This document shows, in pieces, positions 1,883 through 63,445 of a DNA stretch of 64,000 bases. Source of the DNA: an uncultured Bacteroidota bacterium (lineage in GTDB: Bacteria; Bacteroidota; Bacteroidia; Bacteroidales; P3); NCBI GenBank assembly GCA_902788805.1, contig CADALO010000020.1, forward strand, positions 1-64,000, written 5' to 3'. The notes under the pieces were generated by a model. The model worked only from the letters and a program-made list of their open reading frames with translations. It made no database searches and was not told the origin of the DNA. The translations under genes were made by a program, and so were the position numbers. Positions within the stretch are counted from its first letter, which is position 1. Each line of letters begins with the position of its first letter.

Positions 1883-3718
1883 CTATTGTTTTTTCAGCGC
1901 GTTGTAGCGTTTGCGTGCGCGGTCGGCGTAGAGGCTGGCGGGATAGTCGAGCAGGAGCTTCTCGTAGCATTCGCGTGCTCGGTCGGTGTTGCCCAGCTGT
2001 TGCTCGTTGAGCTCGGCAAGCATAATCAGAGCATCGTCGGCCAGAATGTCGCTGGCATAGTGGTCCACGATGCGCTGCAGCAGCGAGTCGGCTTCGGTAT
2101 AGCGCCCCTGTTTCATTCGGATACGGGCTTTCTGCATCAGCACCTCGTCGAAGAGCGAATGCGACAGGTTGCGGATTGTGATGTCGTCGTATAGTGCCCA
2201 GGCCGAGTCGAGCTGGCCGCGATAGAGCATCAGGTCGGCGGCGGCATAGTAGGAGAGGGCTTCGTAGGTGCTGTCCTCCTCCATATTGTCGCTGATGAGG
2301 AGCGAGAGCTGCATTGCGTCGTTGGCGATGAGTTTTGAGGTCGATGCGCGCAATACGTCGAGCTGTGACTTGGCCCACTGGAAGTCGTTGTTGTAGTAGC
2401 TCAGCTTGGCGTTCTTGAACTTGGCCATAGCGCCTATTACGTCGTTCTTGTTGGCTTTCTCCACCTGGCTGTACAGTAGCGACGCGTCCCATATCTCGCC
2501 CGAGAAGAGCAGCAGGTCGCCAAGCTCGAGCTTCACTTCGCTTACGGTATTGCCCGGCAGCCGCGGCATCTCGATGATGTCGTAGAGCAGGTCGGCGGCC
2601 TTTTGCAGACGGGCATTGTCGGCAGGCGTGTTGTAGGCCAGCAGGTGCGAGTAGTTGCGCATCAGCGGCACTGTCTGCGGGTTCTTGCCGAGTTCGGTCA
2701 GGGTGGCCTCATATTCGCCCTCCAGCGCCGCCAGTTCCTTGGCGTTGACAGCGTGGCCCTGGTTGATGCGTGCGTATTTTGTGGTCAGCAGTCCTATCTT
2801 GCTTTCGAAGTATAGCGGCGTCTCTTTGCCTTTGGCGATGATGTGTCTGTAGGCGGCCTCGGCCACGTCGAAGGCCTCGTTGTTATGGGCTATCTGCGCC
2901 ACGCGGTACACTTGTTCCGCCCCTTGGTCGGGGAATCGTGCGTCGACGGCCTTGGCCTGTGTCAGCGCAAAATCGAAGTCGAGCTGCTGCAGCGAGAACC
3001 AGATCATCATCTCAAGATAGTTCCTGTTCTCGGGGTTCTGGCGGATGCGCGATGTCAGCGTGCGTCGCAGGCCGTCGGCAAGCTGTGTGGTGGAGGTCTC
3101 GTTCAGGGCCCTTTGCAGGGCTATCTGTATCGAGCCCATCGAGCCGGGCGATTTGTCGAGCAGAGCGAAGTATTCCTGGGTCATCTTCTCATAGTTGCCC
3201 GACTTCTCGTAGAGCGTGGCCAGTTCCATCACATAGATGTACTGGTTGTCCATCCGTTCGCGGGCGGCCAGATAGGTCTGTATGGCATAGTCGTTGCGGC
3301 CGGCGTTCTCGAAGGCCATAGCAAGGTCGCTTGTCTGCTTTGAGTCGCGCCCCAGCCTCTCTATGGCTGCGGCATACTGCTTCTCGGCCTTCTTCTTTTC
3401 GCCGCGTTTCAGGTAGATGCTGCCCAGGTCGACATAGAGGAACAGGTCGCGCGGCTGCCGTTTGAGGCGCTTCTCTACCAGCCGCTCGGCCTCCTTGTAT
3501 TTGCCTGTCTCGGCATAGCAACCCAGCAGCATCTGGTAGTAGTAGATGTTCTGCGTGCGGGCGTAGAGCGGCTCATAGAGTTCTATGGCCTTGTCGTATT
3601 CACGGTTCTGATAGTAATACGAAGCCATCTGTTCCGTCGTTTGCTGGGCGGAACAGATGGTTGGTGTGAATAATTGAATAATGAAAAGTATAGACGATAG
3701 CAGGAGGGCCTTTTTCAT
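1883..3718 (-). CDS. Tetratricopeptide-repeat protein, exported
   Basis: A 611-residue protein with a signal peptide (MKKALLLSSILFIIQLF..., cleavage likely near CSAQQ). Helical TPR-type repeats fill the mature part, e.g. YYYQNREYDKAIELYEPLY, LGCYAETGKYKEAERLVEK and the C-terminal LADDALIMLAELNEQQLG. TPR arrays are protein-protein scaffolds, and exported ones in Bacteroidota often help assemble envelope machinery; no specific role can be read here. It lies just upstream of nothing on its own strand, and the SIMPL gene precedes it by 36 bp, suggesting a shared transcript. The fold class is sure, the function unknown. Confidence 0.88.
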   Translation of the reverse strand: MKKALLLSSILFIIQLFTPTICSAQQTTEQMASYYYQNREYDKAIELYEPLYARTQNIYYYQMLLGCYAETGKYKEAERLVEKRLKRQPRDLFLYVDLGSIYLKRGEKKKAEKQYAAAIERLGRDSKQTSDLAMAFENAGRNDYAIQTYLAARERMDNQYIYVMELATLYEKSGNYEKMTQEYFALLDKSPGSMGSIQIALQRALNETSTTQLADGLRRTLTSRIRQNPENRNYLEMMIWFSLQQLDFDFALTQAKAVDARFPDQGAEQVYRVAQIAHNNEAFDVAEAAYRHIIAKGKETPLYFESKIGLLTTKYARINQGHAVNAKELAALEGEYEATLTELGKNPQTVPLMRNYSHLLAYNTPADNARLQKAADLLYDIIEMPRLPGNTVSEVKLELGDLLLFSGEIWDASLLYSQVEKANKNDVIGAMAKFKNAKLSYYNNDFQWAKSQLDVLRASTSKLIANDAMQLSLLISDNMEEDSTYEALSYYAAADLMLYRGQLDSAWALYDDITIRNLSHSLFDEVLMQKARIRMKQGRYTEADSLLQRIVDHYASDILADDALIMLAELNEQQLGNTDRARECYEKLLLDYPASLYADRARKRYNALKKQ

Positions 3719-3754
3719 CGCTGCGGTTCTCAGAATCCAATGGTGGAAATGGTA

Positions 3755-4462
3755 TTATTTCAGGTAGTATTCGACAGTGGTCACGACGCGTATCTTCTTG
3801 ATTTGAGGTGTGTTCTCGTCAAGGTCGCTGATGTCGAAATAGCCTTGCGAGGCAGTGCGCATCTTGCCTATCTTGCTGTGGCTGTTCTTGGCAAACTCCT
3901 CGGCACTCTCGCGTGCCTTGTCAAGGCTCTCGGCAATCATTGAGGGCTTGATGTCGTTGAGACCGTCGTAGTTATAGCTGGCCGAGGTGCTCGAGATGAT
4001 GTCCTGCTTCAGCAGTTCGCCGTCGATGGTGCGCTGCAGCTTGCGTACGGCTTCCATATTGGAGCTGAAAACGCTGATGGTCTGACGTGCCGTGTAGCGG
4101 AATTTCAGGTTCTCGCTGATATAGTAGTCGTCGTAGCGGTCGCTGAAGTTTGCTGTGGAGTACTTGATTTCCTCGTCCTTGATGCCGGCCTTTTTGATAA
4201 GGGCCACGATAGCTTCGTCGTTGCGCTCAACCCTTGCACGGAGGTCGATGAGCGAATTGTCCTGTGAGGTGTAGCTGATGCGCAGCACCACGTTGTCGGC
4301 TGGCACTTCGCGTTCGCACAAGCCCTTGACTGTCACCGTGTCGTCGAACGACTTGAGCGTCTTGACTGTCCATACCAGCATAAGGCCTAGCACAAATGCT
4401 GCCAGCACAATGCTTGTGCCGAGGATGTAGTTTTTCTTGAATGGAATTTGACTGCCTTTCAT
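3755..4462 (-). CDS. SIMPL (DUF541) domain protein, membrane-anchored
   Basis: A 235-residue protein with one N-terminal transmembrane segment (YILGTSIVLAAFVLGLML) followed by a SIMPL domain. Family marks are VTVKGLCEREVPADNVVLRI near the start of the domain, the paired-helix region, and VVTTVEYYLK at the C-terminus. SIMPL proteins are periplasmic or membrane-tethered oligomers with poorly defined roles, sometimes linked to oxidative or envelope stress. The downstream TPR gene is 36 bp away on the same strand, so co-transcription is likely. Confidence 0.87.
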   Translation of the reverse strand: MKGSQIPFKKNYILGTSIVLAAFVLGLMLVWTVKTLKSFDDTVTVKGLCEREVPADNVVLRISYTSQDNSLIDLRARVERNDEAIVALIKKAGIKDEEIKYSTANFSDRYDDYYISENLKFRYTARQTISVFSSNMEAVRKLQRTIDGELLKQDIISSTSASYNYDGLNDIKPSMIAESLDKARESAEEFAKNSHSKIGKMRTASQGYFDISDLDENTPQIKKIRVVTTVEYYLK

Positions 4463-19980: not shown

Positions 19981-20644
19981 CGTGTTGAAAACACGTTATT
20001 CTATTAACCCCACACTAAGCCGAATGGCGCAGTGTGGGGTTGTGCTATCATTTGAAGGAATGCGTGCCGAAGGTACGCTACAACAATAAAATACATAATT
20101 CTTGCGTTATAATGATATGAGTTATACCACATCATATTATCATATTGTTTTTCGCACCTATTGCAGTGAACCGACAATACCAGTTGGCCACGAACGCGAG
20201 TTATATGCCTACATCTATGGTATTGCAAAGAATCTCCGTTGTCAGACTTACCGTATAGGTGGTATGCCAGATCACGTGCATATTTTTGTCTCTCTTCCTC
20301 CTGCGCTGCCACTGTCTGAGTTTGTCCAGCGAGTAAAAACTGATTCAAGCAAATGGATGAAGAATAATCCCAATTATCCGCATTTCAAGGGTTGGGGGCG
20401 CGAGTATGCAGGATTTAGCTATAGTCTACAAGACAAAGATAAAATTGTGGGTTACATTATGCGACAGAAAGAGCACCACCGCGTCGTTTCCTTTGCAGAA
20501 GAGTATCGTGCATTCCTTGAAGAGAACGGTGTGATTATTAACGACCAATACTTTCTTAAGGATGTGTAGTAGCGTGTTTTCAACACGCATTCGTAGTGTG
20601 TATCAAACACCCCACATTGCGCTCCGTTGTCGCTTAATGTGGGG
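19981..20644 (+). mobile_element. RAYT element: Y1 transposase flanked by inverted REP-like hairpins
   Basis: The transposase gene is bracketed by matching palindromes. The left side has CGTGTTGAAAACACG (19981-19995) and the hairpin AACCCCACACT/AGTGTGGGGTT (20006-20041). The right side has CGTGTTTTCAACACG (20573-20587) and CCCCACATT/AATGTGGGG (20610-20644). The two sides are inverted relative to each other; ATTCTATTAACCCCACA on the left matches the reverse strand of the right. This is the layout of REP-associated tyrosine transposases, whose hairpins are the recognised ends. Confidence 0.8.
20117..20569 (+). CDS. REP-associated Y1 (IS200-like) transposase
   Basis: A 150-residue HUH single-strand transposase. 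The HUH motif is MPDHVHIFVSLPP; the likely nucleophile Tyr lies in KIVGYIMRQKEHH. GWGREYAGFSYS before it is also typical. I chose the internal ATG giving MSYTTSYYHIVFRT, the conserved family start, over an upstream TTG. The gene appears intact. RAYTs are usually single-copy, domesticated genes that spread REP hairpins. Confidence 0.92.
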   Translation: MSYTTSYYHIVFRTYCSEPTIPVGHERELYAYIYGIAKNLRCQTYRIGGMPDHVHIFVSLPPALPLSEFVQRVKTDSSKWMKNNPNYPHFKGWGREYAGFSYSLQDKDKIVGYIMRQKEHHRVVSFAEEYRAFLEENGVIINDQYFLKDV

Positions 20645-20763
20645 TTAATAGGATAATGTGCCTCCGGCACATCTTGCTAAATGTATGGTTAATAGGATAA
20701 TGTGCTCTGGAATATCTTGCTTGATGTATGATTAATATGAGGATGTGCCTTCGGCACATTTGG
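20645..20763. repeat. Tandem ~44-bp degenerate repeat after the RAYT element
   Basis: Units begin TTAATAGGATAATGTGC at 20645 and 20689, and TTAATATGAGGATGTGCC at 20732. Each carries a small hairpin such as GTGCCTCCGGCAC, degraded in the middle copy. The tract extends the right REP-like end of the transposase element toward the next promoter. Confidence 0.65.
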
Positions 20764-25615: not shown

Positions 25616-25651
25616 CATTTTGTTTTGCAAGAATAGTATTATACAATATTG

Positions 25652-26623
25652 ATGGACAATAGAGACGATGCAAAGTATATGCGGCGCTGCTTTCAGTTGG
25701 CTGCCAATGGGTTGGGGCGTGTGCGCCCAAACCCGCTGGTAGGATGCGTTGTTGTGAAAGATGGCCGCATTGTCAGCGAAGGCTACCATCAGCAATATGG
25801 CGGCAACCACGCCGAACGTAATGCCTTGCTTAATTATGAATTTCGAATTATGAATTCTGAAGAGGCTGACGCAACAAATTCAAAATTCAACTTTCAAAAT
25901 TCAACATTATATGTGAATCTCGAGCCCTGTTCTCACTTTGGCAAAACGCCACCGTGTGCCGACCTTATCATCGAAAAGAGGATAAAAAAAGTTGTCTGTT
26001 GTAACGACGACCCCAATCCGCTCGTGGCAGGCAAGGGTTTCGCCAAACTTGAGGCCGCAGGCATCGAAGTCGTGCGCCACGTGCTTGAGGATGAAGGAAG
26101 AGAACTCAACCGCCGTTTCTTCACCTTTATGGAGAAGCAGCGGCCGTACATTATCCTGAAATGGGCTGAAAGCGCTGATGGCTTTATGGCTCCCGAAGGA
26201 AAGGAGAAATACTGGATCAGTAACGAATTCCAGACTATTATGAGCCACAGGATGCGCACCGAGGAGGCTGCCATCCTTGTCGGTTCGCAGACCTATCTCG
26301 ACGACCGTCCGCAGCTGACAGCACGCCTCTTTGGTGGCAACCAGCCGCAGCCAATCGTGCTTGATCGTAGAGGAAGATTGACAGATGTGCCCGACCATTG
26401 GCTGCATCTCCGTTGTCAGACTCCCGACGAGCTGATGCATACGCTTTTCGAAAAGAAAATCCAGTCGCTTATTGTCGAGGGCGGGCGCCAGATACTGGAT
26501 GCATTTATCACCGCAGGCCTCTATGATGAGGTTGTCATCTTCCGCGGTCCCAAGGAGTTCGGCTCTGGTCTGAAGGCTCCTGAAGTGCCGCCAATAGCCC
26601 CAAACCGCTTGCATATATATTGA
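25652..26623 (+). CDS. ribD: Riboflavin biosynthesis deaminase/reductase RibD, with an unusual in-frame insert
   Basis: Bifunctional: an N-terminal zinc deaminase (GNHAERNALL; EPCSHFGKTPPCADLI) and a C-terminal reductase (ILKWAESADGFM, EGGRQILDAF) for steps two and three of riboflavin synthesis. 323 residues. Between the HAE motif and STLYVNLEPC there are about 24 residues, roughly twice the usual spacing. They read NYEFRIMNSEEADATNSKFN and are encoded by AATTATGAATTTCGAATT-like DNA that resembles spacer repeats, not coding sequence. Both zinc motifs are intact, so the enzyme is probably still active. I chose the ATG over a TTG one codon upstream. The IMPACT-family gene follows 9 bp after the stop. 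Confidence 0.94.
   Translation: MDNRDDAKYMRRCFQLAANGLGRVRPNPLVGCVVVKDGRIVSEGYHQQYGGNHAERNALLNYEFRIMNSEEADATNSKFNFQNSTLYVNLEPCSHFGKTPPCADLIIEKRIKKVVCCNDDPNPLVAGKGFAKLEAAGIEVVRHVLEDEGRELNRRFFTFMEKQRPYIILKWAESADGFMAPEGKEKYWISNEFQTIMSHRMRTEEAAILVGSQTYLDDRPQLTARLFGGNQPQPIVLDRRGRLTDVPDHWLHLRCQTPDELMHTLFEKKIQSLIVEGGRQILDAFITAGLYDEVVIFRGPKEFGSGLKAPEVPPIAPNRLHIY
25831..25904 (+). repeat. AT-rich repeat-like insert inside ribD
   Basis: TTATGAATTTCGAATTATGA, then GAAGAGGCTGACGCAAC, then AAATTCAAAATTCAAC, all in frame. The piece GAATTnnGAAGAGGCTGACGC has a counterpart in the spacer at 27250-27275 (GAATTAAAAGGGGCTGACGC). Other genes' spacers here carry similar short-period AATT words. Confidence 0.6.
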
Positions 26624-30252: not shown

Positions 30253-30556
30253 GTCTGTTTTTGTACCCTGTGTGAGGCTGTTTTTGGCACTGTGTGTCCT
30301 GACAGGCCTTCGTGCAAGGTTTTTCCTCGCTTCTCCTCCTGTTTTCCTCCGATTCTTGTCCGCTTGTTGTCCGCTTGATGTCCGCTTGTTGTCCGCTTTT
30401 AAAGCGGACAACAAGCGGACATCAAGCGGACAACAAGCGGACAACAACCAGTGTAGTGTTGGTCCGGAGCGGAAACGGTCGGGAAACGGCGATGATTTAG
30501 CCGGTCCAATGCAATATTTTGAGCCGAATGCCGTTTTATGCTCAAAAGTTTGGACT
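30253..30556. other. Spacer holding a type B 11-bp-period element
   Basis: Besides the inverted repeat at 30356-30465 I see no gene. An open frame crosses the element into the next gene, but the palindrome is open in several frames at each copy, so this is not evidence of coding. Confidence 0.6.
30356..30465. repeat. 11-bp-period inverted repeat, core type B (TTGTCCGCTTG), copy 1
   Basis: A perfect 44-bp inverted repeat about a single central base (30400). Each arm is four 11-bp units: TTGTCCGCTTG, TTGTCCGCTTG, ATGTCCGCTTG, TTGTCCGCTTT. The right side continues into an outer arm, CAACCAGTGTAGTGTTGGTCC (21 bases, written with its two halves CAACCAGTG and GTGTTGGTCC). The left outer arm is missing or diverged. 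The core is identical to copies 2 and 3. Confidence 0.88.
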
Positions 30557-36233: not shown

Positions 36234-36340
36234 GGACCAAGACTGGTTGTTGTCCGCTTGTTGTCCGCTTGATGTCCGCTTGTTGTCCGCTTTTAAAGCG
36301 GACAACAAGCGGACATCAAGCGGACAACAAGCGGACAACA
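36234..36340. repeat. 11-bp-period inverted repeat, core type B, copy 2
   Basis: The core (36250-36338) is the same perfect 44-bp inverted repeat with one central base as copy 1. The left outer arm GGACCAAGACTGGTTG is present. The right outer arm is absent, and the core abuts CAATTATATCG of the downstream promoter region. This is the mirror image of copy 1, which lacks the left arm. Confidence 0.88.
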
Positions 36341-36392
36341 ATTATATCGTGTGCGACATAATGTTAAATAATCATAAATGTTTCACTTTTAG

Positions 36393-46824: not shown

Positions 46825-46953
46825 ATATCAACACTGGTTGTTGTCCGCTTGTTGTCCGCTTGATGTCCGCTTGTTGTCCGCTTTAAAAGCGGACAACAAG
46901 CGGACATCAAGCGGACAACAAGCGGACACAAGCGGACAACAACCAGTGGCGGT
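46825..46953. repeat. 11-bp-period inverted repeat, core type B, copy 3 with an extra unit
   Basis: The left outer arm is CAACACTGGTTG and the right one CAACCAGTGGCGG. The left arm has the four standard units. The right arm has five, the added one being 10 bp (CAAGCGGACA), so this copy is longer on one side than the 44-bp copies 1 and 2. The central base is A rather than T, which equals copies 1-2 read on the other strand. It lies between divergent sstT and the DUF4836 gene. Confidence 0.88.
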
Positions 46954-47239: not shown

Positions 47240-47690
47240 GAATATATTGTTTGATGGTGCGACACACCCGGATTGTCGATGCTCGATGGTGCGACACACC
47301 CGGATTGTCGATGTTTGATGGTGCGACACACCCCGGCCTTCGGCCACCCCTCTCCGAGAGGGGATGGGCTGCCGCATCGTTTTGATTGTCAATTTGATTA
47401 TCAATGTATCGCTGCCGCTCTCGGAGAGGGGTGGCCGAAGGCCGGGGTGTGTCGCACCAGCCGTTAAGATAACGAAGCGGTGAACGAAAACAATGGCCGG
47501 GGTGTGTCGCACCAGCCGTTCCGATAGCTAAACAGCTTAGGCTGGTGGTGTGTCGCACCGTCAAGCCAATGCCATACGTCGTTTTTCCGTCGGCCCTTCG
47601 GGACTTTTTTCTATTGCCCCGTTTCCTGCAGGGGTTGCGCTGCGCTCCACCCCTGCCTGTAATCCTTCGCCCTTTCAGGGCTTTGGAGTT
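47240..47690. repeat. GGTGCGACACACC repeat cluster, left
   Basis: Three direct units of 32 bp (GGTGCGACACACCC at 47256, 47288, 47320) lead into CCCCGGCCTTCGGCCACCCC and TCTCCGAGAGGGG. After a short centre the same modules return inverted (GAGAGGGGTGGCCGAAGGCC, GGGTGTGTCGCACC three times). Then comes a ~130-bp stretch with hairpins (GGCCCTTCGGGAC, CCCTGAAAGGGC reversed). The last ~190 bp are nearly identical, inverted, to 62985-63150. Confidence 0.8.
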
Positions 47691-47780: not shown

Positions 47781-49412
47781 ATGAAGAATTTATTCTGCAA
47801 AAGAAATGTATTGAGTTTGTTGGTCGCATTGCTGGCTGTGGTGACGCTGGCCTCCTGTTCAAAGGGCGTCGATATGGGCAAATACATCCCTAAAGATGCC
47901 CTGTATGTTTTAGACTTCGATATGGACGAGCTGTGGGACAAGGCGGATTTGGACAATATCGACCAGATTTCGTTTGTCAAGCTGGGCCGTCAGGAACTGC
48001 GCAGCGAGAACCCCTGGGCCGCCGACCTGGTCGACGCCATACTGAAGGACCCCACCGCGACGGGTTTGAACCTGAAACGCGACATTGCTGCGTATTTCTG
48101 CTACAATAGCGACATCGACGGCGCTGTTATCGCCACGATGCATAATAAGAAGAAGTTTGAGGAGTTCCTCAACGATTTTGCCAAACAGAACGAGTTGACC
48201 GTCAAGTTCGAGGACAAGGACGGATGGCGCCTGGCGACAACGGTAAGCGAATTCAACGTTGAGAACTATGTGGCCTTCAACGGCGACGTGGCTATGCTGC
48301 TTTTCTCGGGCAATGGTATGGACAAAGTTCTGTCGATGAAGAAAGACGAGAGTCTGGCTGGCGACAAGCGTTTCCGTGAGTACTGGAAAGATCGTAGCGA
48401 GATAAGTATGTGGATGGGTATGAAGGAGATAGTGTCCATCGCAGAGCAAAACGGCACAGATGTGAAAGGTGCGCTCGGCCAAATCTATGGCGAAGAGTAC
48501 TGGAAAGCCATCGAGAATGCCAGCATTGCCGGCAATGTGGTTTTCGACAAGGGCGTGATGCGTATGGTGTTCACCTATCAAGGCATCAGCGACAAGATTA
48601 TGAAGCAATATATGCGGAAGTTCGATGACGGGTTGGTTGACTATATGCCTGAGAAGACATACGCAACTATGGCTGTTGCCTACAACCTGGAGGAGACAAT
48701 GAAGGTGCTTGAGGCCAACAAGGAACTTGACATCAACCTCGACGAAGAGGCTATGGAAGGCGTCACGGTGCGCGACGCGGTGTCGGCCTTCGGCGGCAGT
48801 ATGCTCTTCAGCCTGTTCGACCTGCAGGTCGACAACGGTTCGGTTATGCCTATGATGGCGCTGGCACTCGACATCAAGGATGCCGACATAGTGAAGAAAC
48901 TCCTTGCCGAAGCCGGACTGACTGCCGTGGAGGAGAACGTATACAGACTGGAGGGCTTCTTCAACTTCCCGATATATGTGGCAATGAACAAGAAGGCAGT
49001 GTTTGTGACCAACTCGGACGCTGCCCTCGAAGGCTTCAAGAAAGGCGGCAACAAGAACGCTATGAAGGGCATTGCCAAGAGTGTCAAGGCAGGCAACTAT
49101 ATCTATGCCGACCTCGACATCAACCACTACCCCGACGGCGTGAAGGCTTTGATACCCGAGAATATTGTTGTTCTTATGAGCAAATACTTCGATTACACAG
49201 AGATTAAAGTCAACGGCACCAAGAACGGCGAATGGGACCTTTATATCAAGGACAAGAAGCAGAACAGCCTGCTGTCGACGCTACACTTTGTAGATGACAA
49301 CATTGTGGAGTTGGGCAACCTGGCCGGCTCGATTGGCGGTGGCAGTGACTACCCCGAGGTGGAAGACACACTCTATGTGGAAGAGGATTGGGACTTTGAA
49401 GATGAGGATTGA
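47781..49412 (+). CDS. DUF4836 family lipoprotein
   Basis: 543 residues with lipobox LASC (Cys26). The start of the mature protein, YIPKDALYVLDFDMDELWDK, and the repeated ~200-residue body with YVAMNKKAVFVTNSDAAL match the Bacteroidales DUF4836 family, whose role is unknown. The C-terminal tail is acidic. Its last 11 bases overlap the ABC ATPase start, so lipoprotein, ATPase and permease form one operon. Confidence 0.88.
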   Translation: MKNLFCKRNVLSLLVALLAVVTLASCSKGVDMGKYIPKDALYVLDFDMDELWDKADLDNIDQISFVKLGRQELRSENPWAADLVDAILKDPTATGLNLKRDIAAYFCYNSDIDGAVIATMHNKKKFEEFLNDFAKQNELTVKFEDKDGWRLATTVSEFNVENYVAFNGDVAMLLFSGNGMDKVLSMKKDESLAGDKRFREYWKDRSEISMWMGMKEIVSIAEQNGTDVKGALGQIYGEEYWKAIENASIAGNVVFDKGVMRMVFTYQGISDKIMKQYMRKFDDGLVDYMPEKTYATMAVAYNLEETMKVLEANKELDINLDEEAMEGVTVRDAVSAFGGSMLFSLFDLQVDNGSVMPMMALALDIKDADIVKKLLAEAGLTAVEENVYRLEGFFNFPIYVAMNKKAVFVTNSDAALEGFKKGGNKNAMKGIAKSVKAGNYIYADLDINHYPDGVKALIPENIVVLMSKYFDYTEIKVNGTKNGEWDLYIKDKKQNSLLSTLHFVDDNIVELGNLAGSIGGGSDYPEVEDTLYVEEDWDFEDED

Positions 49413-50166
49413 ACTTCACAATCTAAAACCTAAGTATATGTCGGAATCGGAAGTTGCCGGTTCCGACATATATTTACAGCCGTCTGTCGTCTTTGAGCAG
49501 GGGCGCAGCTATCTTGTCCGCGCCCGCTCGGGCCACGGCAAGACATCGCTACTCAACTTCATCTATGGCATCAGCGGCCAGTATGACGGCGAGGTCGTTT
49601 TAACGGAGAACGGAGAACGGAGAACGGAGAGCGGAGAGCGGAGAGCGGATGGCGCGACACACCCCGCCGCTTTGTTTTTTGTTCACCGCTTCGCTACCGG
49701 AACGGCCACTGGCAGTTCCTTCTCCCCTCTCCGAGAGGGGATGGCTAACGCAAGAACCGAGAATGAGCTGCGCACGAGGGTGCTGAGCTTTATGTTTCAG
49801 GACTTGGGCCTGTTTCCGCAACTGACGGCGATGGAGAATGTGCAGCTAAAGAACCGGCTGACGGACTTCAAGAGCGACGCTGAAATTGAGGCTATGCTCG
49901 ACGCGCTGTTGCCGGAAGGCAAGAAGCACCAGCCGGTGGCGACTCTCTCGCTGGGCCAGCGGCAGCGCGTGGCGGCGGTGAGGGCATTGTGCCAGCCGTT
50001 CAAGATCATTCTGATGGACGAGCCTTTCAGCCATATCGACAGCGAGAATGCCCGCTGTGTGGCGGATATGGTTATGGGCGAGGTCGGCAGGCAGGGCGCA
50101 GGACTGATAGTCACGGCTCTGGATGCAATAGATTATTTCCCTTTCGACGTGACATATAATTTATAG
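49402..50166 (+). CDS. ABC transporter ATPase with an in-frame repeat insert
   Basis: 254 residues. Walker A is ARSGHGKTSLL (first Gly replaced by Ala). The Q-loop is FMFQDLGLFPQLT, the signature LSLGQRQRV and Walker B IILMDEPFSHID. Between GEVVL (residue ~67) and LRTRVLSFMFQ is a ~50-residue stretch, ENGERRTESGERRADGATHP and onward. Its DNA is first a GGAGAACGGAGAGC tandem repeat, then a copy of the GCGACACACCCC...CCCCTCTCCGAGAGGGG spacer repeat. LolD-like relatives have only ~15-20 residues there. The reading frame is kept, so the protein may still work. It pairs with the FtsX-like permease 3 bp downstream. Confidence 0.9.
   Translation: MRIELHNLKPKYMSESEVAGSDIYLQPSVVFEQGRSYLVRARSGHGKTSLLNFIYGISGQYDGEVVLTENGERRTESGERRADGATHPAALFFVHRFATGTATGSSFSPLREGMANARTENELRTRVLSFMFQDLGLFPQLTAMENVQLKNRLTDFKSDAEIEAMLDALLPEGKKHQPVATLSLGQRQRVAAVRALCQPFKIILMDEPFSHIDSENARCVADMVMGEVGRQGAGLIVTALDAIDYFPFDVTYNL
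49603..49746 (+). repeat. Dispersed spacer repeat inserted in the ABC ATPase gene
   Basis: A GGAGAACGGAGAACGG-type tandem tract is followed by GATGGCGCGACACACCCC, TTTGTTCACCGCTTC, GGAACGGC and CCCCTCTCCGAGAGGGG. The same blocks in the same order occur at 63150-63270, and partly at 47320-47372. The length is about 144 bp, a multiple of three. Confidence 0.8.
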
Positions 50167-50168
50167 CT

Positions 50169-51350
50169 ATGTTGAGAAAGTTACAACGCAAGACATTGAT
50201 ACCGGCTCAGATTGCGGGCTATGCGCTGACGCTGCTGGTCGGTGTGGCCATTGTTCTGCTCGCCGTGCAGGTGTACTGCGACCTGAAGCCGCTGCTTGAC
50301 AGCAAGACCGATGTCTTCAGCGCTCATACGGTGACGGTTTCCAAGAACGTTACGGTCTTCAAGACGGCCAACAAGGAAGGTTTGTATTTCTCTGAGAAGG
50401 AGCTCAAAAGGCTCAAGGAGCAGGAGTTCGTCAAGGAGGTGGCGCAGTTCAACAGTGCCACGTTCAATACCAGTGCCGCCATATCGTTTGACGGTCAGCG
50501 GATGAGCACTGACCTTTTCTTTGAGAGTGTCCCCGACAGCTATCTGGACATTGAGAGCGACGAGTGGCAGTGGGACAGCACGTCGGATTTCCTGCCGATT
50601 ATTATTCCGGAGGACTACCTGAACCTATACAATTTCGGTTTCGCCGAAAGCCAGTCGCTGCCGGTGGTGTCGCCCGCGGTGCTTTCGCAGGTGACGTTCA
50701 GCATATTTGTGGAAGGCAACGGCAAAAGCAAGGTCTATAACAGCCGCATAGTGGGTTTGACGGGCAAGATTAACTCGATTCTGGTGCCTGAAGACTTCTT
50801 GCGGTGGGCTAACAGCGAGTTCGGCAGCGCAGAGGAGAAAGGCAGCAGCCGGTTGCTGGTCGAGTTCAGCGATGCCAGCGACGAACGTATACCGCAGTAC
50901 TTCGAGGCCAACGGACTCAACATTAACAAATCGGAGCTTGAGACGAGCAAGATGGCGTTCTTTTTCAAGTTGGCGATGCTGTTTGTGACAGTCATCGCAG
51001 TCATCATCATAGTCCTGTCGGTGGCGTTCATCATTATGAGTATGAACCTGATAGTGCAACGCAACCGTGAAATGTTTGTCAATCTGCACAACATCGGCTA
51101 CTCCGTCAAGGATATTTCGAGGTTCTATAAGGTTGTAGTCAGCGTTATAACTGTTGTCGACCTCTTGTTGGCGGTGCTGCTTGTGCTATGGGTGAGAGGA
51201 ATGTATATCGACCGAATGTCGGCGCTCTTCCAGACGGGAGGAGGTTTTATGCCTATGCTGGCAGGCACCGCGGTCCTGATGGCACTGCTACTTGTTGTGT
51301 GCAACCTCTTTACAGGTCGGGTGATAAAGAATATCACTAACAGACAATAA
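50169..51350 (+). CDS. FtsX-like ABC transporter permease
   Basis: 393 residues. An N-terminal span (AGYALTLLVGVAIVLLAV) is followed by a large ~230-residue periplasmic region, then three more spans (MLFVTVIAVIIIVLSVAFII, VVSVITVVDLLLAVLLV, LAGTAVLMALLLVVCNLF). The four-span plan with a large first loop is that of LolC/MacB/FtsX proteins. With the upstream ATPase and lipoprotein it probably handles lipoprotein or envelope-substrate transport. Confidence 0.88.
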   Translation: MLRKLQRKTLIPAQIAGYALTLLVGVAIVLLAVQVYCDLKPLLDSKTDVFSAHTVTVSKNVTVFKTANKEGLYFSEKELKRLKEQEFVKEVAQFNSATFNTSAAISFDGQRMSTDLFFESVPDSYLDIESDEWQWDSTSDFLPIIIPEDYLNLYNFGFAESQSLPVVSPAVLSQVTFSIFVEGNGKSKVYNSRIVGLTGKINSILVPEDFLRWANSEFGSAEEKGSSRLLVEFSDASDERIPQYFEANGLNINKSELETSKMAFFFKLAMLFVTVIAVIIIVLSVAFIIMSMNLIVQRNREMFVNLHNIGYSVKDISRFYKVVVSVITVVDLLLAVLLVLWVRGMYIDRMSALFQTGGGFMPMLAGTAVLMALLLVVCNLFTGRVIKNITNRQ

Positions 51351-62984: not shown

Positions 62985-63445
62985 TCGTAGCCATAGCCCT
63001 GAAAGGGCGAAGGATTACAGGCAGGGGTGGAGCGCAGCTGAACCCCTGCAGGAAACGGGGCCATAGAAAAAAGTCCCGAAGGGCCGACGGAAAAACGACG
63101 TAAGGCATTGGCTTGACGGTGCGACACACCCCCGGCCTAAGCTATTTAGCTATCGGAACGGATGGTGCGACACACCCCGGCCTTCGATTTTGTTCACCGC
63201 TTCACAATTGGAACGGCTGATGCGACACACCCCGGCCTTCGGCCACCCCTCTCCGAGAGGGGATGGCGCGGCAGCGCAACACTTTCTAATCATTGATAAT
63301 TAAAGTGATGCGGCAGCCCATCCCCTCTCGGAGAGGGGTGGCATCGACAATCCGGGGTGTGTCGCACCGTCAAGCATCGACAATCCTGAGTGTGTCGCAC
63401 CATCAAGCATCGACAATCCGGGGTGTGTCGCATTGTCAAGCTAAA
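62985..63445. repeat. GGTGCGACACACC repeat cluster, right
   Basis: 62985-63150 is an inverted near-copy of the end of the left cluster (shared: GGATTACAGGCAGGGGTGG, CCCCTGCAGGAAACGGGG, GGCATTGGCTTGACGG). Then come GATGCGACACACCCCGGCC units, CCCCTCTCCGAGAGGGGATGG and, beyond a centre near 63290, the same modules inverted. It closes with a 33-bp tandem (GGGTGTGTCGCACC + GTCAAGCATCGACAATCC, about three copies). No gene is visible. Confidence 0.8.

Follow-up and report, generated by a model that had tools for sequence, protein, structure and literature searches.

The ATPase gene and its insert

The DNA stretch analysed here, referred to as the window, comprises the first 64,000 nucleotides of contig CADALO010000020.1 (assembly GCA_902788805.1), from a ruminant-gut bacterium of the gut Bacteroidales. 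At 49402-50166 of the forward strand it holds a gene for an ATP-binding cassette (ABC) transporter ATPase of the LolD/MacB/FtsE-like type (PF00005, 2.6e-18), which is interrupted in frame by a two-part insert. The first part (49602-49650, forward strand) is a heptanucleotide array, (A[A/G]CGGAG)~7, composed of the units AACGGAG and AGCGGAG and translated as TENGERRTESGERRA; Tandem Repeats Finder (TRF) gave a period of 7, 6.9 copies and 97% matches, so that the nine-base unit GGAGAACGG proposed in an earlier, sequence-only reading of the window has to be replaced. The second part (49648-49745, forward strand) is a block of 98 bases, GCGACACACCCC...CCCCTCTCCGAGAGGGGATGGC, translated as ATHPAALFF...SPLREGMA, which recurs at nine other places in the genome, 82-93% identical along almost all of it. 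This block is a half-element, one arm of a longer inverted repeat, and is called the arm below; at its inner end a short stretch, CCCCTCTCCGAGAGGGG (49724-49740, forward strand), folds as a hairpin.

Alignment of the window protein with 28 orthologues from the same genus (29 proteins) places the insert between Walker A and the Q-loop, as had been read from the sequence. The window protein has 254 residues and its orthologues 206-232. An insert of about 48 codons had been proposed; the protein is 44 residues longer, in frame, than the 210-residue orthologue L012, which already has a short array. The nearest orthologue, from G018, has neither array nor arm but just a short different stretch; in L012 and L013 a short stretch resembles an array and the arm is missing, and L014-L016 carry arrays of differing lengths. 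The extra residues were absent from every arm-free orthologue, and a second species, G006, has a shorter array followed by the arm at the identical site, so the insert is not an assembly join.

The statement that all ATPase motifs survive holds for Walker A, the Q-loop, the signature (LSLGQ), Walker B and the D-loop, all intact in the insert-bearing protein, and fails for the switch histidine, which is replaced by TALD, TSLD, TALE or TTLD. As this histidine is missing in all 29 proteins, its loss was not caused by the insert. In this family TALD or one of these variants stands where TH is usual, and LSLGQ stands instead of LSGGQ. In an AlphaFold2 model built from 17 sequences (mean predicted local distance difference test, pLDDT, 81.7), values below 50 occur only at residues 79-119, which is the insert. 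This model, the orthologues without insert and the purifying selection on the flanks (see below) bear out the proposal that the repeat is tolerated as a loop, and the ATPase would most likely keep working with a disordered loop. At the RNA level the in-gene arm folds barely better than its shuffles (z -1.21), the array itself is not palindromic, and the two folded jointly reach z -2.98.

The best PDB matches of the protein are ATPases of the LolD/YbbA type, and the fold is of LolD/YbbA/FtsE type; the gene is single-copy in its genome at E<=1e-30. Its ATG at 49402 overlaps the stop codon of a DUF4836 gene upstream (47781-49412, forward strand; PF16120, 1.7e-46). Directly downstream lies a gene for an FtsX-like permease (50169-51350, forward strand; PF02687, 7.6e-5, slightly below the curated cut-off), the presumed partner of the ATPase.

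The intergenic parent of the arm

The sequence-only reading had recognised the arm in gene-free clusters at 47.3 and 63.2 kb. It is indeed present there, as one arm of an element that is entire at these places. In the element at 47322-47456 both arms pair as a single long stem (-108.2 kcal/mol, z -11.7 against shuffles). The second intergenic cluster (63120-63441) combines an entire element with its end repeated in tandem as 33-bp copies. Single-hairpin matches at C1, C2, C3, C5 and C7, with the second arm present, degenerate or lost, are all intergenic and were rejected as half-elements.

Palindromes of the REP/BIME type are moved by RAYT transposases, and the clustered, inverted-repeat parent element is BIME-like. 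Mobilisation of the arm by such an enzyme is unsupported, since the flanks of all three Y1 transposase (RAYT-like) genes of the genome carry other palindromes and not the parent element. The one in the window (20126-20467) is followed at 20632-20759 by a 43-base sequence in tandem copies that contain a palindrome of the GTGCCTCCGGCAC type.

Heptanucleotide arrays throughout the genome

In the 2.73-Mb draft genome (25 contigs, 100% complete, 0.05% contaminated) a pattern of four heptads was matched 122 times with at most one mismatch, 71 times exactly among the matches listed, compared to no match for the reversed-pattern control, which excludes chance. The scale of the repeat, which affects about twenty genes and in most of them lacks the arm, is not visible from the window alone. 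A plasmid search yielded a lone 53-base match. The literature searched, which takes in few subscription journals, gave no paper on the repeat itself or on heptamer arrays lying in frame in Bacteroidales genes.

Exact arrays of four or more units, 37 in number, were classified by location. Twenty-one are in sense orientation and in frame within open reading frames (ORFs), three are antisense within ORFs and 13 are intergenic. The sense bias, with the purine-rich strand nearly always the coding one, is strong (21 vs 3; binomial p 0.0003), and intergenic copies are oriented as well, 12 of the 13 lying 3' of a co-directional gene (p 0.003), 11 of those within about 65 bp. Fourteen of the 21 sense arrays have one family or adjoining domains matched on both flanks; their hosts are an M16 peptidase, DUF3857, NqrA, RdgB, an I69/C10 peptidase, RsmH, PolA, PAP2, an aldolase, YidC, RsgA, the ABC ATPase and, twice, UvrB. 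DnaG is also among the host genes. The in-gene status of the arrays in the ATPase, the C10 peptidase and RecF, which fall below the coding-score cut-off, was assigned from family evidence. Three of the 21 assignments are less secure. The array of RecF lies at the far 3' end of the gene, that of L117 possibly joins two genes into an apparent Omp85 ORF, and L111 is without a family match. RsgA and UvrB are single-copy in the genome at the thresholds used.

The three antisense arrays comprise one in FolK and one each in RlmI and a GH3 gene, where it forms the latter half of an inverted pair. In these pairs (L116 2253-2337 and L120 2146-2226) a hairpin within the coding sequence is possible. Shorter or mutated arrays, outside the count of 37, occur for instance in ValS (two), TopB, GltA, as a second array in PolA, and in antisense in BirA; the antisense copies in FolK and BirA read LRSPFSV-like.

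The tolerance of genes for these arrays can be understood from the arithmetic of the unit. AACGGAG and its variants are stop-free in every cyclic triplet on both strands, and the sense strand yields an ENGERRT-like hydrophilic heptapeptide in all three frames. Because seven is one more than a multiple of three and no cyclic triplet is a stop, the same heptapeptide results whatever the frame, so that any array of frame-preserving length can be tolerated at a site that accepts a loop. Openness alone is not special, as about half of random 7-mers are open on both strands.

A second heptamer, (AAAATTC)n, was matched 21 times in the genome with at most two mismatches, compared to once for its control. 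It is open in the sense direction only, and wherever it lies in an ORF of good coding score it is in sense orientation. It occurs in eight ORFs, in six of them inside family matches (RsgA, FolC, PyrC, QueA, QueG and RibD). The ribD ORF lies in the window (25637-26620, forward strand) with the array in frame at 25879-25905, spanned by the TIGR00326 match (1e-79). Both period-7 arrays of the window, starting at 25879 and 49602, are thus inside genes, compared to none of the other 14 tandem arrays scored, two of which lie just upstream of a probable start. Another dispersed repeat family in the window consists of intergenic inverted arrays of 11-base units (TTGTTGTCCGC / AAGCGGACAAC) at 30348-30447, 36247-36341 and 46838-46942.

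Composites, empty sites and selection in related genomes

At least three genes of the present genome (G000) contain the composite of array and arm: the ATPase, RsgA and a glycosyltransferase (GT2). In the sense of the gene the order is constant, the array being followed by GCGACACACCCC and then by the hairpin. The arm is read in different frames, as ATHP...LREGMA in the ATPase and as CDTPRPSATPLREGMA in RsgA. The glycosyltransferase composite (L052 ~3680-3790, C3 of G000) has a third repeat, a AGGCTTCCAGCCT palindrome, which is also found beside arrays elsewhere. Composites occur at the same three sites in G006, as well as at a second RsgA site, in AtpG, in two further ORFs and at places where no coding ORF was found. 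One RsgA loop of G006 has three arms alternating with arrays, with a frame made uncertain by a gap of Ns in the contig. The G006 ORF for the ATP synthase gamma subunit (L280 1254-2312) encodes 353 residues against a model of 286 positions, with array and arm in frame.

The relatives are mostly Bacteroidales metagenome assemblies, several of them labelled as from rumen or other ruminant gut. The array pattern was found in 35 of 120 genomes of the genus, with at least ten matches in 14, and in four of 395 genomes of a phylum sample, G000 counted. A 14-mer of the arm is present in six of the 120, all array-bearing. On a UvrB tree, calculated with the insert columns removed, the array-rich genomes group together (4 changes against a mean of 9.2 after shuffling); the tree comprises the 30 best-matching loci and lacks the array-rich G006 and G107, and G013 (13 matches).

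Empty sites are present in orthologues of both RsgA and UvrB. In the RsgA alignment (30 loci, one without an ORF and one with a misaligned frame) most proteins read NKCDLY-DDELW or similar with no insert, and G000, G006 and G107 have arrays. The first array site follows the NKxD motif and the second precedes the DTPG strand; both were placed by alignment with 1u0l, the RsgA model being poor (mean pLDDT 61) and used as support only. The second site is occupied by (AAAATTC)n in G000 and by array and arm in G006. UvrB has its arrays in a segment that precedes the C-terminal region. G000 and G018 share them, those of G012, G021 and G041 appear decayed, and more distant relatives are without. The same array sites, compared across sister species, show several stages: empty, array, array with arm, and repeated array with arm.

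The insert-bearing genes tested are under strong purifying selection, with flank dN/dS (ratio of nonsynonymous to synonymous substitution rates) of 0.04-0.20 in all 12 comparisons. Between the UvrB genes of G000 and G018 the flanks have diverged (dS 0.58), while the 23 aligned array codons, which offer few sites, show no synonymous change, as would be expected if arrays are renewed or homogenised. Preferred units differ between genomes: by eye, all three units begin with AAC in 27 of 33 listed places of G006, compared to five of 33 in G012.

Origin and maintenance of the arrays

Taking the location, frame and orientation of the arrays, the order of the composites, the empty sites and the selection on flanks as observed, we consider it probable that the ATPase insert is a copy of a dispersed, frame-neutral heptanucleotide satellite, (A[A/G]CGGA[A/G])n, now spread over the genome and one branch of the genus and tolerated in the proteins as predicted surface loops. 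We propose that arrays reach new sites by the copying of existing arrays, through template switching or repair synthesis with short homology as primer, and that slippage would then make them grow, shrink and homogenise. Selection may purge copies that shift the frame, hit structure or lie antisense. The arm probably joined arrays later, by insertion or recombination, and only the half-element, unable to form the long stem, would persist in genes. Copying is preferred over separate origins because one unit family prevails genome-wide while other genomes prefer other variants, and because the UvrB array lacks synonymous changes despite its diverged flanks.

Several observations weigh against the satellite. 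No copying machinery was found in the genome, its three RAYT-like genes being flanked by other palindromes, and no exact pair of empty and filled sites with a target duplication was obtained. Right-hand junctions differ among species. The decayed UvrB arrays of G012, G021 and G041 mean that the pattern is partly one of old inheritance, not of fresh insertion, and chance seeds followed by slippage could have created some arrays.

The last point leads to the strongest competitor, in which each array grew locally, by slippage, from a short seed within its gene, and a preference at the mutational or peptide level accounts for the shared unit. Some bacteria have an excess of heptameric repeats, which has been ascribed to the polymerase footprint as a proposed cause (PMC4692102), and the ATPase site of L012 and L013 has short ENGERR-like stretches. 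We nevertheless regard a purely local origin as unlikely, as the RsgA site of array-free relatives holds no seed (YDDELW; YGADDELW in G005), genic and intergenic sites alike hold one unit family, the arm, which is no product of slippage, is joined to arrays in genes, and 391 of the 395 genomes in the phylum sample are without the pattern.

Two functional explanations appear improbable, to a similar degree. An in-frame unit that is not a multiple of three, with copy numbers varying between species, could serve as a contingency locus, at which slippage turns the host gene on or off (phase variation). Its hosts, however, are core housekeeping genes (PolA, ValS, DnaG, YidC, RsgA, UvrB), not genes for surface or dispensable functions, the frames are intact in the genomes compared, one per species, and the flanks are under purifying selection. 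Charged ENGERR loops might instead be selected as useful peptides, e.g. as tags for solubility or partner binding, with which the sense bias and the hydrophilic sequence agree. Against this, length and sequence change fast, orthologues lack the array, the UvrB array decays in three genomes while its flanks stay conserved, antisense copies read LRSPFSV-like, and intergenic copies share the orientation bias.

Removal of array and arm from message or protein, in the manner of an intron, an intein or a translational bypass, is highly improbable: the entire element does fold very stably, but the in-gene form is without the stem, no Rfam intron lies in the window, and in the genes examined the insert leaves the reading frame open, which would be unnecessary if it were removed. 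An artefact of assembly or binning, conceivable for a draft in 25 contigs compared with metagenome assemblies, can practically be dismissed given that the separately assembled G006 has its composites in the ATPase, RsgA and GT2 at identical positions, and given the intact frames in some twenty genes and the completeness and purity of the genome.

Relation to known repeats and implications

We place the insert among the dispersed heptanucleotide repeats, as a variant of its own. A resemblance to Rickettsia palindromic elements had been suggested for it. These elements, which also occur in Wolbachia, are palindromes of about 150 bp with a conserved peptide, and the suggestion stands for the way of working, in-frame insertion into unrelated conserved genes being common to both, but not for identity. 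The in-gene unit, a non-palindromic heptamer array with half a palindrome, is no palindrome of 100-150 bp, such as only the intergenic parent is (z -11.7), and encodes no single conserved peptide, the arm being read in varying frames. The distinction was made from published descriptions of Rickettsia palindromic elements, the only Rfam matches in the window being two tRNAs; since its in-gene form is not the defining palindrome, we do not assign the repeat to them. In published accounts, those elements are dispersed repeats lying in frame in loops of unrelated conserved genes that still work (PMC10969869, PMC2996958). PARCELs, palindromic amphipathic repeat coding elements, are likewise repeat coding units that spread within and between genomes, but differ in being tandem protein domains, described chiefly in mollicute membrane proteins (PMC2996958).

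A tandem unit of seven bases at many dispersed loci is shared with the heptameric repeats of Xanthomonas and Nostoc and with cyanobacterial STRR sequences. An STRR reportedly lies inside a cyanobacterial RNase P RNA gene. The unit is GGGAATC in Xanthomonas and GGGGATT in Nostoc, with intergenic copies no more than about 50 bp from stop codons on the sense strand (PMC4692102). The present intergenic copies lie likewise 3' of co-directional genes. The unit here has only GG, in some arrays a palindrome arm is joined, and 24 of the 37 arrays are in ORFs, whereas those of Xanthomonas are reported as mostly intergenic and under-represented in coding sequence, which is a trend among the described cases and not a definition.

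Exact four-unit patterns also occur in 30 viral stretches (L202-L231), mostly GC-rich; in nearly all of these the longest covering ORF spans the pattern, mostly on the AESGKR/ENGERR side. The viral contig L217 has four arrays and L222 an inverted pair. The arm was found in none of the viral contigs. A KdtA-like ORF of another Bacteroidota, G309 (L232 1355-2785), contains several arrays and a further heptapeptide repeat, KSEVRSR. On the strength of the viral stretches, this KdtA-like gene and the second unit, AAAATTC, in eight ORFs, we tentatively raise the possibility, though doubtful at present, that heptanucleotide arrays are general parasites of coding sequence, which invade genes of unrelated bacteria and phages, act as landing pads for other repeats and give rise to new protein loops.

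In-frame invasion of working genes by repeats has been known mainly from Rickettsia and Wolbachia, which are intracellular bacteria. Here it is found on a comparable scale in one gut bacterium of the Bacteroidales. The unit is simpler, and its arithmetic explains why it can be tolerated. For annotation this is a warning that such loops are repeats, not domains. Since sister species show several of these stages at corresponding sites, both the emergence of new protein loops and the spread of satellites in bacteria become directly testable.
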